Below are positions 11,212-24,320 of a stretch of DNA of 27,523 bases, piece after piece. A model generated the notes under the pieces. It ran no database searches. It was not told the origin of the DNA and worked only from the letters and a program-made list of their open reading frames with translations. The stretch covers positions 1 through 27,523 of IMG/VR virus record IMGVR_UViG_3300046524_000215, one strand, 5' to 3'. The first letter of the stretch is position 1; every line of letters begins with the position of its first letter. This DNA is from a virus. Made by a program: the position numbers and the translations under genes.

Positions 11212-11525
11212 AAAGCCACCTCAATGCTGCCGAATTTCATGGTTTTCGCCGTCACCAGGTACTGCCCGGGTTCGAGCTGGGTGATCAGCGCCGTTCCCGG
11301 TACCAGACGTTCGTCCGCCTCCACCAGCAGCTCCAGTTGTTGAATGCAGTCGCGTTGTTTCAGACTGTTGCGCTCGGCAACCAGTGTCACCAGCAGGCCG
11401 CTGTCGCGGATCATGTGCGCGATGTCCTGGGCGATGCTGGAGCGGTCATCGATCAGAAACGGCTGACGGGACGGATCGAGCACCAGGTCGTTGTCGACGA
11501 TCAGCAGATCGATGTATTCGTTCAT
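11208..11525 (-). CDS. W-like baseplate protein (DUF2590-type)
   Basis: The 105-aa protein begins MNEYIDLLIVDNDLVLDPSR and has SIAQDIAHMIRDSGLL, matching the small HP1-type protein that replaces P2 gpW (the T4 gp25 analogue) directly before J. It should stabilise sheath and wedge in the baseplate. It overlaps the tape measure gene and J by 4 bp each. Confidence 0.8.
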   Translation of the reverse strand: MNEYIDLLIVDNDLVLDPSRQPFLIDDRSSIAQDIAHMIRDSGLLVTLVAERNSLKQRDCIQQLELLVEADERLVPGTALITQLEPGQYLVTAKTMKFGSIEVAL

Positions 11526-13504
11526 CCGCCCACCGCCATGCTCACCATGTTTTCCATTTCCAGCGGGGTCATTGGCTTGCTGGTGTGGATGTTCACGTTT
11601 TCCACGCGGTTGCCCTTGTTCTGGTTGCTGTTGTTTTGAATGCTGGTCAACAGCCCACCCGGCGGCACACCGGCGGCGCGCGTCGGTGAAAGGCTCGGGA
11701 TCGCCGAGTTGATGGTCTGCTGGGCTTTTTGCGCAGAGCTCGCGGTATCGGCCGCAGTCATGGCCGCGTCGACACCCGGCACTTCCGGCATGCCGCCGAA
11801 CCGCGCTTCGATGTTCACGCCGGGGATGGTGTTGATCATCTCGATCAGGCTGTTAATGGCCTTGTAGAAAACGCCGACGATGCTGGCCCACGCGCCTTTG
11901 GCCATGCCCGACCAGCCGCCCATGGAGTTGAACCAGTCGGACAATGTTTTGAACTGGTCACTGACCCACTTGAAGGCTTTGCTGTTGAGCAGTGCCGAGG
12001 TCCATTCGTCCCAGTAGTAGATGGCCACGGCGACCAGAGCGACCAGGGCGGCGATGCCCATCACCACGACGCCAATGGGGTTGGCAGTCAGGGCAAAGTT
12101 GACCAGCCAGATAGCGGCCTGCCAGGCCAACATGACGCCGCGAACGACCAACATGGCCGCACCGAACAACGTCAAGATGGACAGGTAAGCCAGGATGGCC
12201 AATTTCTGCAGCACGAACCCGGCAACGGTGCGCAGGTTCAACAGCTGCACCACCTTCCAGACCGACACCAAGCCCAGCCAGGTCATCCGACTGATGCCGA
12301 TCACCATCGTCAGGGCGGACATCGCGAAGATGATCCCGAAAATGGTCAGGGTGACGATGCCGATCACCCTGGCGATGTTCGGAAACAACTGGGTCCAGCG
12401 CGTCAGCTTGGCGCCGATCGCGGCGAGTTTGTCCATCAACGGCGCCAGGATCGGGATCAGCGCCTGGCCAAAGGCAATGCGCAGGGCTTCGACTGCAGCG
12501 GAAAATTTCTGCCACGGATCCACCATCGCCTTGGCCATGTTCTCGGCATTTTCCAGACCTCGGACTTTGCCCAGCTGGTCCATCCCGTTGCGCAGGCGGT
12601 CGGTGTCTTTGGTCAGTGCGGTGATGACGCGGGCGCCTTCGCCGCCGAAGGCTTCGATCAGCTTGGCGCCGGCACTGGCACTGTTCAGATCGCCAAACTT
12701 GCCTTCCAGCTTGCCGAGGATGTCCATCATCGGCAGCAATTTGCCGTTCTGGTCGACGAACTTCATCCCCAGCTTTTCCGACGCACCGCCGATGTTTTCG
12801 AAGAACGCCTTGTAGATCCCGCCGGCGTCTCCGCCTTCCATGGTGCTGCTGAGCGATCCGATCACCGCGAATTGCTCAGCCAGGTCGACGCCAAAGGTGG
12901 TCGCGATCGAGCCGACTTCCTTGAACGCATCCTTCAGTTGGGCGCCGTCGGTGCGGAACAGCTTCACCGCCAGCGCGGTTTGGCCGCCGAGTTTTTCGAC
13001 CCATTCGCCTTTGCCCATGGCATCGGCCTGGCCCTTGAACAGGTTGTACATGGTGCCCACGTAGGCGCCCATAGTTTCCGCATCGCCTTTGGTGGCCTTG
13101 GCCAGCAGGTTGCTGGTATTGGTGAACGTGGCCAGCTGGTCACCGGTGAGCCCCTTGATAGCGCCCTCGATGCTGTAGGCCGACGCAACAAAGTCCCGGG
13201 CGTTTTCCCCATAGGCCACGGAGAATTCCAGGGACTTGCGATTCAGCGCATTCAGCGCATCCTCGGCCACGCCCAGCGATTTGACCTCGCCCAGGGCGCG
13301 GTTCATCTCCAAGGCCGGCGCCAAAGACTGGGTGATCGCTACGCCAGCGCCGACCATGCCGCCCAGCCCCATGCCCATCGTCTTGATGTTCTTTTCACTC
13401 TTTTCGGCAAGGTCGGAAAAACCCATTTTCACTTTGCCCAGGGGCGCGGTGACCTTGTCGGTCAGACTCAAAATGAAGGCCAGGCGGGCAGCGCGATCAG
13501 CCAT
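11522..13504 (-). CDS. T: Tail tape measure protein
   Basis: The 660-aa protein opens with a TP901-type N-terminus (FILSLTDKVTAPLGKVKMGF) and continues as long Ala/Gly-rich helix. A cluster of hydrophobic segments runs from about residue 395 to 510 (such as VIGIVTLTIFGIIFAMSAL and IGVVVMGIAALVALVAVAIY), a feature of tape measure proteins that enter the host membrane during DNA delivery. The C-terminus is Gln/Asn-rich and ends with PMTPLEMENMVSMAVGG. It sits immediately after the tail chaperone gene pair, as expected. At 660 aa it implies a short tail, similar to HP1. Confidence 0.93.
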   Translation of the reverse strand: MADRAARLAFILSLTDKVTAPLGKVKMGFSDLAEKSEKNIKTMGMGLGGMVGAGVAITQSLAPALEMNRALGEVKSLGVAEDALNALNRKSLEFSVAYGENARDFVASAYSIEGAIKGLTGDQLATFTNTSNLLAKATKGDAETMGAYVGTMYNLFKGQADAMGKGEWVEKLGGQTALAVKLFRTDGAQLKDAFKEVGSIATTFGVDLAEQFAVIGSLSSTMEGGDAGGIYKAFFENIGGASEKLGMKFVDQNGKLLPMMDILGKLEGKFGDLNSASAGAKLIEAFGGEGARVITALTKDTDRLRNGMDQLGKVRGLENAENMAKAMVDPWQKFSAAVEALRIAFGQALIPILAPLMDKLAAIGAKLTRWTQLFPNIARVIGIVTLTIFGIIFAMSALTMVIGISRMTWLGLVSVWKVVQLLNLRTVAGFVLQKLAILAYLSILTLFGAAMLVVRGVMLAWQAAIWLVNFALTANPIGVVVMGIAALVALVAVAIYYWDEWTSALLNSKAFKWVSDQFKTLSDWFNSMGGWSGMAKGAWASIVGVFYKAINSLIEMINTIPGVNIEARFGGMPEVPGVDAAMTAADTASSAQKAQQTINSAIPSLSPTRAAGVPPGGLLTSIQNNSNQNKGNRVENVNIHTSKPMTPLEMENMVSMAVGG

Positions 13505-13510
13505 GGGTGT

Positions 13511-13962
13511 TTATCCGTTCAATGCATGGGCGATGCCGTTGGCAACGGCGATCTCCATGCGTTTCCAGTGGTTGTCCTCCAGCCACTTGGCAGTGCCCAT
13601 CACCTCGGATGAGGGCTCTTCACCAGGTAACCAGCGATGGGCCAAGGCCAGCAACTGGCCGAGGTTGTCTTCGCTTAGGCGCTCGGCGTGGTCGAGGGCT
13701 TTTTTACGATGATTTCAACGTCTGGCCCGTACTCTTCCATCAGGGCACCAGCCATTTGCATAACCGTCACGGGGTTGCCCAACAGTGACTTCAACGTGGC
13801 GCGTTCCTCTTGCTTCACGGTGTTGACCAACAGGTTGTTGGCTGGGGCGACCTTGTTGTTCTGGGTCATGCCATTGAAGTACTTGGTCACGTCCTGGGGC
13901 GTCAGGGTGAAAGTGAATTCTTTGTCGCCGACTTCCAGGGTGATTTCGCGTGTTTCGTTCAT
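13511..13962 (-). CDS. Tail chaperone long form (E+E'-like) made by -1 frameshift
   Basis: Slippage at 13705-13699 (A AAA AAG) after residue 88 of the 95-aa chaperone would move translation into an open frame that runs 62 more codons to the stop at 13511-13513. The result is a 150-aa protein. The added part is mainly helical (ALDHAERLSEDNLGQLLALA, then HRWLPGEEPSSEV and KWLEDNHWKRMEIAVANGIA) and has no start codon of its own with a ribosome site near its beginning. It lies between the chaperone and tape measure, where lambda G-GT and P2 E-E' frameshift fusions lie. The frame has no other explanation. Confidence 0.75.
13675..13962 (-). CDS. E: Phage tail assembly chaperone, short form (gpE-like)
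   Basis: The 95-aa protein starts MNETREITLEVGDKEFTFTL and contains DVTKYFNGMTQNNKVAPANN, followed by ERATLKSLLGNPVTVMQMAG. This is the pattern of tail assembly chaperones of HP1/Mu-type myophages. It is just upstream of the tape measure gene. The zero-frame stop at 13675-13677 follows the slippery heptamer by 7 codons, so short and long forms would share the first 88 residues. The start overlaps the preceding gene as ATGA. Confidence 0.85.
   Translation of the reverse strand: MNETREITLEVGDKEFTFTLTPQDVTKYFNGMTQNNKVAPANNLLVNTVKQEERATLKSLLGNPVTVMQMAGALMEEYGPDVEIIVKKPSTTPSA
13699..13705 (-). promoter_or_regulatory. Programmed -1 ribosomal frameshift site A AAA AAG
   Basis: On the minus strand the chaperone codons GTA AAA AAG form the heptamer A AAA AAG in the correct phase, the same slippery sequence as E. 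coli dnaX. A possible downstream stem GCCGAG/CTCGGC (13682-13687 with 13658-13663) starts 11 bases after the heptamer. The -1 frame stays open for 62 codons. Confidence 0.8.
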
Positions 13963-15193: not shown

Positions 15194-15402
15194 CGGCGTT
15201 TTCCTTGCTCTGAAAGTGACTCGCAGGGCGTGCAGCGGATGATTCCGCCTTGCGCACGGCGCTTTTCGAGGATTGGTTCTTCGCAGTCCAGGCAGTGGGT
15301 CCGGCTCGGTCCCGTTGGGCGCGGCCGGGCGAGCTGGGCCGCGATTGAACGCTCACGCTCCAACTCCTCGATCGCTTTGGCGTCGTCGAGCCAGTCACCC
15401 AT
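15190..15402 (-). CDS. TraR/DksA-type zinc finger protein
   Basis: The start at 15402 forms a TGATG junction with the tube gene stop. The 70-aa protein has an N-terminal charged helix (MGDWLDDAKAIEELERERSI) and a four-cysteine zinc finger, HCLDCEEPI then IIRCTPC. This is the short TraR-like form of DksA, which binds in the RNA polymerase secondary channel and can act without ppGpp. Many P2-like phages carry one in the late region. Lacking a long coiled coil, it cannot be a full DksA. A role in shifting host transcription late in infection is inferred. Confidence 0.88.
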   Translation of the reverse strand: MGDWLDDAKAIEELERERSIAAQLARPRPTGPSRTHCLDCEEPILEKRRAQGGIIRCTPCESLSEQGKRR

Positions 15403-15854
15403 CAGCGCAGACCCTCGATCTCGGTAGCGTCCAGGTACGGCACGCCGTTGATGCGAATGAAGTCCGGACTGGTGACGTCGAACGGCACCTTGTGCTTGGA
15501 TTTCTCGCCGCCTTTGGGATCCACGCCCAGCAGGCTGGACACCTTCAACTTGCAACCGAAGGCCTCCACGCGAAACTCCTCATCGCCGGCAGCGGCGAAG
15601 AACACCACGTCGAAAGTTTCCATCTTGCGAAAGCTGCCAGCCGATCGGGCGGCCTCGATCAGCAAGTTGAAGTTGCTGGTGTCGAACTCCATCTCGCCGC
15701 TGGCCGAGACATCACCGTCGACGTGCCCATTGGGCACACCCTTGCTCTGTGCCACGGCAGTGTTGTCCGTGACGTCGAGCGTGCAGTTGTCGACGTGGAC
15801 CTGCAGGTCGCCCAGCGTCACGTCAAAGTTCTTACCGCCAATACGTGCTGTCAT
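15402..15854 (-). CDS. Tail tube protein (DUF2597-type, FII-like)
   Basis: The 150-aa protein follows the sheath gene with a 6-bp gap. It begins MTARIGGKNFDVTLGDLQVH and is almost all β, with KVSSLLGVDPKGGEKSKHKV near the C-terminus. This matches HP1-type tube proteins. It polymerises as the inner tail tube inside the sheath. Confidence 0.88.
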   Translation of the reverse strand: MTARIGGKNFDVTLGDLQVHVDNCTLDVTDNTAVAQSKGVPNGHVDGDVSASGEMEFDTSNFNLLIEAARSAGSFRKMETFDVVFFAAAGDEEFRVEAFGCKLKVSSLLGVDPKGGEKSKHKVPFDVTSPDFIRINGVPYLDATEIEGLR

Positions 15855-21466: not shown

Positions 21467-23530
21467 ATGCCATACGCCCCCGAACTAAAAGAAGCCGCCA
21501 AACGCCTCTATTTACGCCGCTGCAAGCCGCGTGAAATTCAGGCGCAATTGTCCCTGCCCAACATCCGGATCGTTTACTACTGGATCCGCCAGGGTGAGTG
21601 GGACGACATGCTGTCGGATGAAGAACCGCTGACAGCCGTTGGCCGGCGGATCACCCTCATCCTGGACAAAGCCACGTCGCTGACGAAGGGCGACCTGGAC
21701 GAACTCGACCGATTGACCACCGTTCGCGATCGGCTATTGAAGCAATCCGCAAAACCGGCACCGGCGCCGATCGGCGATCCACCGGCGGACGATGGTCAGC
21801 GCCGAGAAGGACAGCGCAGCGAGCGTCGGGACCGAGGCGATCGCGGCGACAAGGGTGGGAAGAAGCGCGAGAAGAAGGCCAAAAACGAAGTCGGCGACCT
21901 GACGGAAGTGGACTTTCTCGACAAGTTCATCAGCAAGATGTACGGCTACCAGAAAGAGCTGTTCGCCGCCAAACAGAACCCGCTGACCAGTCGAATCAGG
22001 AACATCCTCAAAAGTCGCCAGGTGGGCCTGACGTACTACTTCGCCGGCGAAGCGTTCATGGACGCCGTGCTGACTGGTGACAACCAAATTTTCCTGTCGG
22101 CCAGCCGCGCGCAGTCCGAGATCTTTCGCAGCTATATCGTGTCGTTCGCTCAAGAGTGGTTCGGCCTGGAACTGACCGGTAACCCGATAGTGCTGAGCAA
22201 GGACGGCAAGCCATGGGCCGAGCTGCGCTTTCTCAGCACCAACAGCAGCACCGCTCAGGGGCACCATGGTCACGTCTACGTCGACGAGTACTTCTGGATC
22301 CGCGACTTCGAGAAACTGAATACCGTCGCCAGTGCCATGGCCACCCACAAGAAGTGGCGTAAGACCTACTTTTCAACGCCCAGCGCGGTGTCGCACCAGG
22401 CGTACCCGTTCTGGACCGGCGAGAAATTCCGTAACAGCAAACGTAAAAACGCCAAGGATCCGTGGCCGAGCGAGGCCCAAGCGGCAGCTGGCTCGCTGTG
22501 CCCGGACGGCCAATGGCGCAAGGTCATCACGATCCTTGATGCCATCGCCGGCGGTTGCGATCTGTTCGACCTCGAGCAGCTGCAGCTGGAGTACGACGAG
22601 GACAAGTTTCAGCAGCTGTTCATGTGCAAGTTCATCGACAGCACGCAGAGCGCCTTTTCGCTGGTCGACCTCGAGCGTTGCTACTCCGACTTGTCGTTGT
22701 GGACCGACTACGACCCGGACGATCCGCGCCCATTCGGCAACAGCCCGGTGTGGATTGGCTACGACCCGAGCCGCACCCGCGACGATGCCAGCTGCGTGGT
22801 TATCGCCCCGCCGCTCGAGGACGGTGGCAAGTTCCGGATCCTGGAGAAACACAGCTGGCGTGGGCAGTCGTTCAAGTACCAGGCCGAGCAGGTAAAGAAA
22901 CTCACCGAGCGCTTCAACGTCCAGCACATCGGCATCGATACCACTGGCATCGGTTACGGCGTGTTCGACCTGGTGCGCGACTTCTACCCGCGTGCGACCT
23001 CGATCCACTACAGCCTCGAAACCAAAAACACCCTGGTGCTCAAGGCGCAGGACACGATTCAGGGCAGCCGGATCGAGTGGGACGCCGGCTGGAACGACAT
23101 CGCTCAGGCGTTCCTGACGATCAAGCGTGGCACCACTGGTGGTGGCCAGGTCACTTACAGCGCATCGCGCACCGACGCCTCCGGTCATGCCGATATCGCC
23201 TGGGCAATCATGCACGCCCTGGCCCACGAACCCCTTAACACCAACAAACAGCGGCGCAGCCGCTACACACTCAGCGGACCAAGCACCCATGGGCAAACCA
23301 GCAAAAAACCAGCCGCAAAAACCAGCACCAGGTCCGATGCGGGCATTTTCATTTGGTGCGCCGGAACAGGTACTGACCGAGAACATCGGGCATTACCTGG
23401 GCGTGTTCGCCACCCACGACGGCAAGACCTACACGCCGCCGGTGTCACGCCAAGGCCTGGCCAAGCTGCTGCGCGCCAACGCTCACCACGGCGCCATTCC
23501 CGGCTTCAAGCGCAACCTGCTGCTGCGTGA
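21467..23530 (+). CDS. P: Terminase large subunit (ATPase/nuclease) P
   Basis: The protein has an N-terminal helix-turn-helix (PREIQAQLSLPNIRIVYYWI), a basic linker rich in Arg, Lys and Asp (about 105-145), the P2-type Walker A KSRQVGLT at residues 182-189, Walker B VYVDEYFW with Asp273-Glu274, and the nuclease motif GYDPSRTRDDAS from Gly431. The P2 family is about 590 aa, whereas the frame here is open for 687 codons. Residues after about 607 overlap portal gene Q out of frame for 242 bp and look like low-complexity readthrough (many R, P, A). The normal stop may have been lost, or the tail may be translated. Core function is packaging DNA into the prohead. Confidence 0.92.
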   Translation: MPYAPELKEAAKRLYLRRCKPREIQAQLSLPNIRIVYYWIRQGEWDDMLSDEEPLTAVGRRITLILDKATSLTKGDLDELDRLTTVRDRLLKQSAKPAPAPIGDPPADDGQRREGQRSERRDRGDRGDKGGKKREKKAKNEVGDLTEVDFLDKFISKMYGYQKELFAAKQNPLTSRIRNILKSRQVGLTYYFAGEAFMDAVLTGDNQIFLSASRAQSEIFRSYIVSFAQEWFGLELTGNPIVLSKDGKPWAELRFLSTNSSTAQGHHGHVYVDEYFWIRDFEKLNTVASAMATHKKWRKTYFSTPSAVSHQAYPFWTGEKFRNSKRKNAKDPWPSEAQAAAGSLCPDGQWRKVITILDAIAGGCDLFDLEQLQLEYDEDKFQQLFMCKFIDSTQSAFSLVDLERCYSDLSLWTDYDPDDPRPFGNSPVWIGYDPSRTRDDASCVVIAPPLEDGGKFRILEKHSWRGQSFKYQAEQVKKLTERFNVQHIGIDTTGIGYGVFDLVRDFYPRATSIHYSLETKNTLVLKAQDTIQGSRIEWDAGWNDIAQAFLTIKRGTTGGGQVTYSASRTDASGHADIAWAIMHALAHEPLNTNKQRRSRYTLSGPSTHGQTSKKPAAKTSTRSDAGIFIWCAGTGTDREHRALPGRVRHPRRQDLHAAGVTPRPGQAAARQRSPRRHSRLQAQPAAA

Positions 23531-24320
23531 GTTCATTGCCTCAGAGGGCTGCTCGGTCCAGACCATGAGCCGAGCCGGGTTGGATTTCATGGTGTTCGGC
23601 GAGTCGTACTTTCTGCGCAACCGCAATGCGTTCGGCCAGGTGCTGGAAATGGAACACCTGCCGACGATCAACATGCGGGTCAGGGTGGGTGGCGGGTTTG
23701 TGATGCTGCTGCCGGACGGCAAAGAAGTGGCATTCGAAGAGGATGAAGTCGAGCACGTCATGAACTACGACGTGGAACAGAACATCTACGGCGTGCCCGA
23801 CTACCTGGGCGGCATGCAGGCGCTGTTGCTCAATGAGGCCGCTACCCTCTTCCGCCGCCGCTACTACAGCAACGGCGCACACGCGGGTTACATCTTCTAC
23901 ACCAACGACCCGAACCTGACCGAGGAGGACGAAGAGTCCCTGCGTGATCAGATCAGCGCGAGCAAGGGCGTGGGTAACTTCCGATCGATGTTCGTGAACA
24001 TCCCGGGCGGTGCCGAGAAGGCGATTCAGATCATTCCGGTCGGTGACTTTCAGGCCAAGGACGAGCTGGAGAAGGTCAAGAACATCACCCGCAACGACGT
24101 GATCGCCGCGTGGCGCATGAACCCCGCGCTAGCCGGCATCATCCCGGAAAACAGCGGCGGCTTTGGCGACATCGAAAAGATCGATCGGGTGTACACCAGT
24201 AACGAGATCCGGCCGATCTGTCAGCTGTTCAACCAGTTGAATGACACACTACGCGAAGACAGGCGATTTACCTGGAAGAAACAAGATGAAGCAGTTGATT
24301 CCACTACATCTAGTGCATAG
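23289..24320 (+). CDS. Q: Portal protein Q
   Basis: The start at 23289 (MGKPAKNQPQKPAPGPMRAF) gives 343 aa, the usual size of P2-type portals. An upstream in-frame start at 23127 would add about 54 residues of unlikely sequence inside gene P. Portal motifs are VFATHDGKTYTPPVS, GLDFMVFGESYFLRNRNAFG, NIYGVPDYLGGMQALLLNEA and the C-terminal RNDVIAAWRMNPALAGIIPE. The ribosome site is weak, so translation may be coupled to P. It forms the dodecameric DNA channel. Confidence 0.93.
   Translation: MGKPAKNQPQKPAPGPMRAFSFGAPEQVLTENIGHYLGVFATHDGKTYTPPVSRQGLAKLLRANAHHGAIPGFKRNLLLREFIASEGCSVQTMSRAGLDFMVFGESYFLRNRNAFGQVLEMEHLPTINMRVRVGGGFVMLLPDGKEVAFEEDEVEHVMNYDVEQNIYGVPDYLGGMQALLLNEAATLFRRRYYSNGAHAGYIFYTNDPNLTEEDEESLRDQISASKGVGNFRSMFVNIPGGAEKAIQIIPVGDFQAKDELEKVKNITRNDVIAAWRMNPALAGIIPENSGGFGDIEKIDRVYTSNEIRPICQLFNQLNDTLREDRRFTWKKQDEAVDSTTSSA

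Follow-up and report, generated by a model that had tools for sequence, protein, structure and literature searches.

Organization of the tail chaperone locus

The window, that is, the whole 27,523-nt stretch of viral DNA that was analyzed, carries a chaperone/extension gene pair between the genes for the tail tube and the tail tape-measure protein, with lysis-type genes between the tube and the chaperone; sheath-like genes also lie nearby. The features considered here are the following.

15402-15854: tail tube, HP1 Orf24 family (profile search)
13675..13962, minus strand: zero-frame tail assembly chaperone, 95 aa, PF10963 (Phage_TAC_10), PHROG 1214, in the position of P2 E and lambda G
13705-13699, minus strand: slippery A AAA AAG, in phase with the zero frame and read GTA AAA AAG (X XXY YYZ)
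13658..13687, minus strand: 6-bp stem GCCGAG/CTCGGC (13687-13682 with 13663-13658), 18-nt loop, 11-nt spacer
13677-13675, minus strand: TAA stop of the zero frame, at which the short product ends, 7 codons (21 nt) past the heptamer
13514..13699, minus strand: 62-codon extension, C-terminal domain of the putative fusion, PF21830 (DUF6890), PHROG 7050, with its stop TAA at 13513-13511
11522..13504, minus strand: tail tape-measure protein, PF10145, its ATG 6 nt past the stop of the extension

Based on the HP1 Orf24-family tube and the sheath-like and tape-measure neighbours, the phage was assigned to the HP1-like Peduoviridae, and Pseudomonas phage phi3 was found to be a relative with similar gene order. 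The ATG of the chaperone overlaps the stop of a small upstream gene (ATGA, 13962-13959, minus strand), suggesting translational coupling to the lysis-type genes located between tail tube and chaperone. At the other end of the pair, the tape-measure ATG at 13504 has only a weak Shine-Dalgarno match of its own (-3.3 kcal/mol), and in many enterobacterial relatives the stop of the extension and the tape-measure start overlap.

An earlier note on this DNA had proposed a programmed -1 frameshift at a slippery site of the dnaX type, and its description was confirmed as regards the heptamer and its phase, the zero-frame stop after seven codons and a -1 frame open for 62 codons. The -1 frame is open from 13714 to 13514 (67 codons, 62 of them past the slip), so that a chaperone-extension fusion would comprise 150 aa in all. 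The in-phase AAAAAAG occurs a single time among the 16 structural genes checked. Within these genes GTA accounts for 5.8% of Val codons and AAA for 34% of Lys codons, and from their codon usage a V-K-K spelled GTA AAA AAG would be expected in approximately 1.3% of cases. The heptamer is followed by CC, reported as the most shift-prone 3'-adjacent spacer (PMC5009743), and X_XXA_AAG heptamers are the most proficient class in E. coli, where A_AAA_AAC is weak, yet its use by bacterial IS elements is very likely (PMC4066793, PMC5009743).

The zero-frame protein matched PF10963 well over the cut-off in profile searches (E 2.9e-19); PHROG 1214, to which it was also assigned, carries no assigned function. 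A sequence search of the PDB yielded nothing significant, and NCBIfam no meaningful match. In the fold search, the AlphaFold model of residues 1-88 (pLDDT 91.5) matched 3FGX (Z 9.7), and the second-ranked hit was 2OB9, the tail assembly chaperone of HK97 (Z 5.1, rmsd 3.4, 75 aligned residues). The latter score lies in a range where a common arrangement is possible, and the function of 2OB9 is the expected one. Family profile and predicted fold together place the zero-frame product, as far as sequence and model can indicate, among the tail chaperones.

Conservation of the slip site in related phages

Relatives were collected from phage records, six single-protein IMG/VR scans and one bacterial-genome scan, resulting in 284 distinct sequences in 47 clusters. 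Two further loci were left out of these counts: L255, in which chaperone and extension are read in a single frame as an in-frame fusion of 147 codons (1501-1941), and L141, which has one A fewer and reads out of frame (1501-1930). In each of them a change in homopolymer length, whether real or a sequencing error, seems to be responsible.

Among the close IMG/VR relatives reaching the site, AAAAAAG was present in phase in 79 of 79. At the level of the whole dataset an in-phase A AAA AAN was kept in 282 of the 284 distinct sequences, counts that are not independent as the sequences are related. Five arrangements were distinguished: A AAA AAC with an abutting stop (n = 145), A AAA AAG with the stop 21 nt downstream (n = 88), A AAA AAA with the stop 21 or 36 nt downstream (n = 31), A AAA AAA with an abutting stop (n = 18, whose named members include Vibrio and Salinivibrio phages), and A AAG AAA (n = 2). 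The codon preceding the heptamer ends in A in all 284 sequences (GTA 276, ATA 7, CTA 1), although, across the main classes of these phages, GTA accounts for no more than 4-22% of Val codons. The last arrangement speaks against a frameshift, as the -1 frame is still open there next to A AAG AAA, where slippage would be limited to a single tRNA (at A_AAG); it is found in two distinct sequences, corresponding to three Pseudoalteromonas-type loci (L285, L288 and L291, slip site at about 1758-1764). These were the only cases of the outcome named beforehand as evidence against the proposal, namely loss of the heptamer in relatives that keep the open frame.

The position of the zero-frame stop was likewise maintained. 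In the Pseudomonas group it lies at the same place in 88 of 88 sequences, encoded by TGA in 81 and TAA in 7. All 145 sequences of the A AAA AAC class have CTG or CTA as the Leu codon of the -1 frame, and the seven in which a G follows all use CTA, which preserves a stop (TAG) even though CTA represents 4% of Leu codons in this class. Ending the short form here thus seems to be under selection as well.

An open -1 frame on its own is not unusual in this GC-rich window, where the -1 frame of many other genes likewise stays open well beyond the stop, mostly into the next gene, and it is therefore conservation that carries the case. The frame could accordingly be viewed as a chance by-product of base composition or as the remnant of a decayed single gene. 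This is the least probable of the explanations considered, close to negligible, since heptamer and frame were retained together in independent relatives, the zero-frame stop is kept by interchangeable stop codons, the extension contains a clean Pfam domain, and its codons are under the purifying selection described below.

Coding selection and identity of the -1-frame extension

The -1 frame of the Pseudomonas group had pN/pS values of 0.13 for codons 1-8, 0.26 for codons 9-18 and 0.21 for codons 9-62, past the zero-frame stop, versus 5.2 for the zero-frame tail overlapping the -1 codons, indicating that the last seven residues of the chaperone are unconstrained and the -1 frame is constrained. 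The homology of the extension begins at the residue right after the slip and spans genera. In the profile search the extension scored well over the cut-off for PF21830/DUF6890, and it was also assigned to PHROG 7050, both labelled as of "unknown function"; among the literature searched, no paper naming DUF6890 was found. The AlphaFold model of the extension was of high confidence (pLDDT 96.1), and a fold search with the extension alone listed no significant match, a result which indicates neither a new fold nor its absence.

In some records the extension is annotated as a separate hypothetical protein of approximately 46-60 aa, while others omit it, so that the prediction that it would be missed by automatic gene calling holds for part of the records only. 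The 46-60 aa calls, exemplified by phi3, BIBS67 and phiO18P, raise the alternative that the extension is a separate small gene with its own internal start instead of part of a fusion. Start-like codons are indeed present within it (TTG 13654, TTG 13645, GTG 13603 and ATG 13600), and the earlier statement that the frame has no start needs softening to the extent that none of them is conserved early enough to substitute for a frameshift. In the A AAA AAC group no start codon exceeded 16% of the sequences over the first 24 extension codons, and no start codon conserved across groups was found. In addition, codons 1-18, none of which lies downstream of the start that is usually called, show protein-level conservation and purifying selection in the -1 frame; in the predicted structure they account for the first helix and a portion of the second. 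In the records of HP1, ESSI-2, ESSI2_ev040 and PV94 no ORF is called there. The length of the annotated ORFs fits the DUF6890 and PHROG 7050 models, which cover only the later part of the extension. Selection in the -1 frame, homology from the slip point and the lack of a conserved start argue against an independent gene, which we regard as very unlikely; on sequence grounds, the downstream frame is coding and has no conserved start of its own.

Downstream structures and slip-site classes

The earlier note had also pointed to a 6-bp stem 11 bases downstream of the heptamer. The stem exists in the window, yet a stimulatory role found no backing: all six pairs are formed in only 11 of 88 relatives, and structure downstream of the heptamer was no stronger than in synonymous shuffles (z -0.25). 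The stem is thus probably incidental and was discarded as a candidate stimulator. With respect to the features of a dnaX-type signal, the heptamer A AAA AAG is present; no stable downstream stem-loop exceeding synonymous shuffles (z about 0) or conserved in the group was detected, nor any Shine-Dalgarno-like stimulator approximately 10 nt upstream in the window's own group; the best such site in the 25 nt upstream of the heptamer was ACGGGC (-2.5 kcal/mol), at 19 nt. The lack of a conserved stem and of a Shine-Dalgarno-like element in this group counts against the frameshift reading.

Some of the other classes differed in this regard. In the Escherichia/Cronobacter ESSI-2-like group (A AAA AAC), an 8-bp stem located 8 nt downstream was paired in 72 of 72 sequences, with compensatory changes at two pairs. 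Strong hairpins were found in five of six clusters of the 18 A AAA AAA sequences with an abutting stop, and little structure at short range in the 31 with a distant stop; in the 88 sequences with the strong site A AAA AAG, the stop follows after 7 codons and no hairpin is under selection. Slip-site strength and stimulators might trade off within one homologous gene, a suggestion we advance tentatively and hold at somewhat under even odds, as each class is largely one lineage. If true, these phages would amount to a natural experiment on the ways in which bacterial ribosomes attain a given frameshift ratio, among them termination-coupled slippage at A AAA AAC; in any case, the slip sites, abutting stops and hairpins of this one gene provide a ready series for measuring how that ratio is set.

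These features also bear on whether RNA polymerase, and not the ribosome, slips on the A-run, adding an A. The run comprises six As (seven in some relatives), and the resulting protein would look nearly identical. Nevertheless, the length selected against in a large proportion of bacterial genomes is nine (PMC1088944), which makes transcriptional slippage less likely on a run of six or seven; the A-run is interrupted in L285, L288 and L291; and relatives show features that act on ribosomes, namely stops directly at the end of the heptamer and, some 7-9 nt past it, hairpins, of which one has compensatory changes. Slippage by RNA polymerase was consequently considered highly improbable, to the same degree as a separate gene.

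Taken together, sequence comparison points to a programmed -1 frameshift in the tail chaperone pair of an HP1-like Peduoviridae prophage of Pseudomonas, with an estimated probability of about 0.93. The frameshift is favoured by a heptamer shared by nearly all relatives and by selection that constrains the -1 frame and not the zero frame.

Comparison with known tail chaperones

The arrangement resembles that of E and E+E' in phage P2, in which a short chaperone and an extended fusion are likewise produced by a -1 shift between tail tube and tape measure, and the end of the extension adjoins the tape-measure start in both. P2, however, slips at T TTT TTG in place of A AAA AAG, and P2-like T-run slip sites have already been described (PMC3931495). 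The proteins differ as well: those of P2 belong to PF10109 (Phage_TAC_7) and PF06528 (Phage_P2_GpE), whereas those of the window belong to PF10963 and PF21830, and comparison of the window and P2 E/E' profiles by hhalign revealed no similarity (probability 0.4%). Homology with P2 E/E' was hence abandoned, although the genomic place is common to both.

Closer counterparts were found in the HP1-like Pseudoalteromonas phage ACA1, where gp36/gp36a (OR438928) are a homologous gene and extension; the site there is A AAA AAA, and the programmed frameshift in the record is solely an annotation projected by analogy with P2. HP1 (orf26) and other HP1-like Peduoviridae also have a homologous pair whose slippery run lies at the corresponding position; the run there is A AAA AAC, followed at once by a stop, and in HP1 the extension is unannotated.

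With lambda G/GT and the HK97 tail assembly chaperones the pair has a common genetic logic, and the chaperone model resembles that of HK97, although no sequence similarity was apparent. The slip sites of lambda G/GT and HK97 differ from that of the window.

Frameshifting in tail chaperones is itself well known, and the pair is a new and well-supported member of that group. The present analysis contributes strong comparative support, assigns DUF6890/PHROG 7050 and maps the slip-site classes. PF21830/DUF6890 and PHROG 7050 thereby gain a role, as the C-terminal half that frameshifting would add to tail chaperones of the HP1 type, and DUF6890 can be renamed; gene callers split or lose this half.

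Proposed mechanism

Most ribosomes would terminate at 13675 and yield the 95-aa chaperone. In a minority reaching A AAA AAG, the tRNA-Lys in the P and A sites would slip back one base in tandem, both re-pairing with AAA, and the shifted ribosomes would read through to 13513 to produce the 150-aa chaperone-DUF6890 fusion. The sequences show the site with its phase and conservation, coding of the -1 frame from the slip point onwards and a chaperone-like predicted fold; that the ribosome is the slipping machinery, the efficiency of the slip and the roles in assembly are inferred. By analogy with lambda G/GT, whose functional roles are summarised in PMC5009743, the short form would serve to coat the tape-measure protein, with the less abundant fusion bringing in tail-tube subunits, and the ratio of the two would depend on slip efficiency.

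The distance from the stop of the extension to the tape-measure start is short in most clusters, and shifted ribosomes may therefore also feed tape-measure translation, which may in this way be coupled to frameshifting.

Elsewhere in the window, the last Pfam domain in the large terminase frame (21467-23530, plus strand) is followed by approximately 100 further codons, and this frame shares approximately 400 nt with the portal ORF (23127-24320, plus strand), which is read in another frame. Either the two genes naturally overlap over a long stretch, with the portal starting later, or a frameshift is involved.
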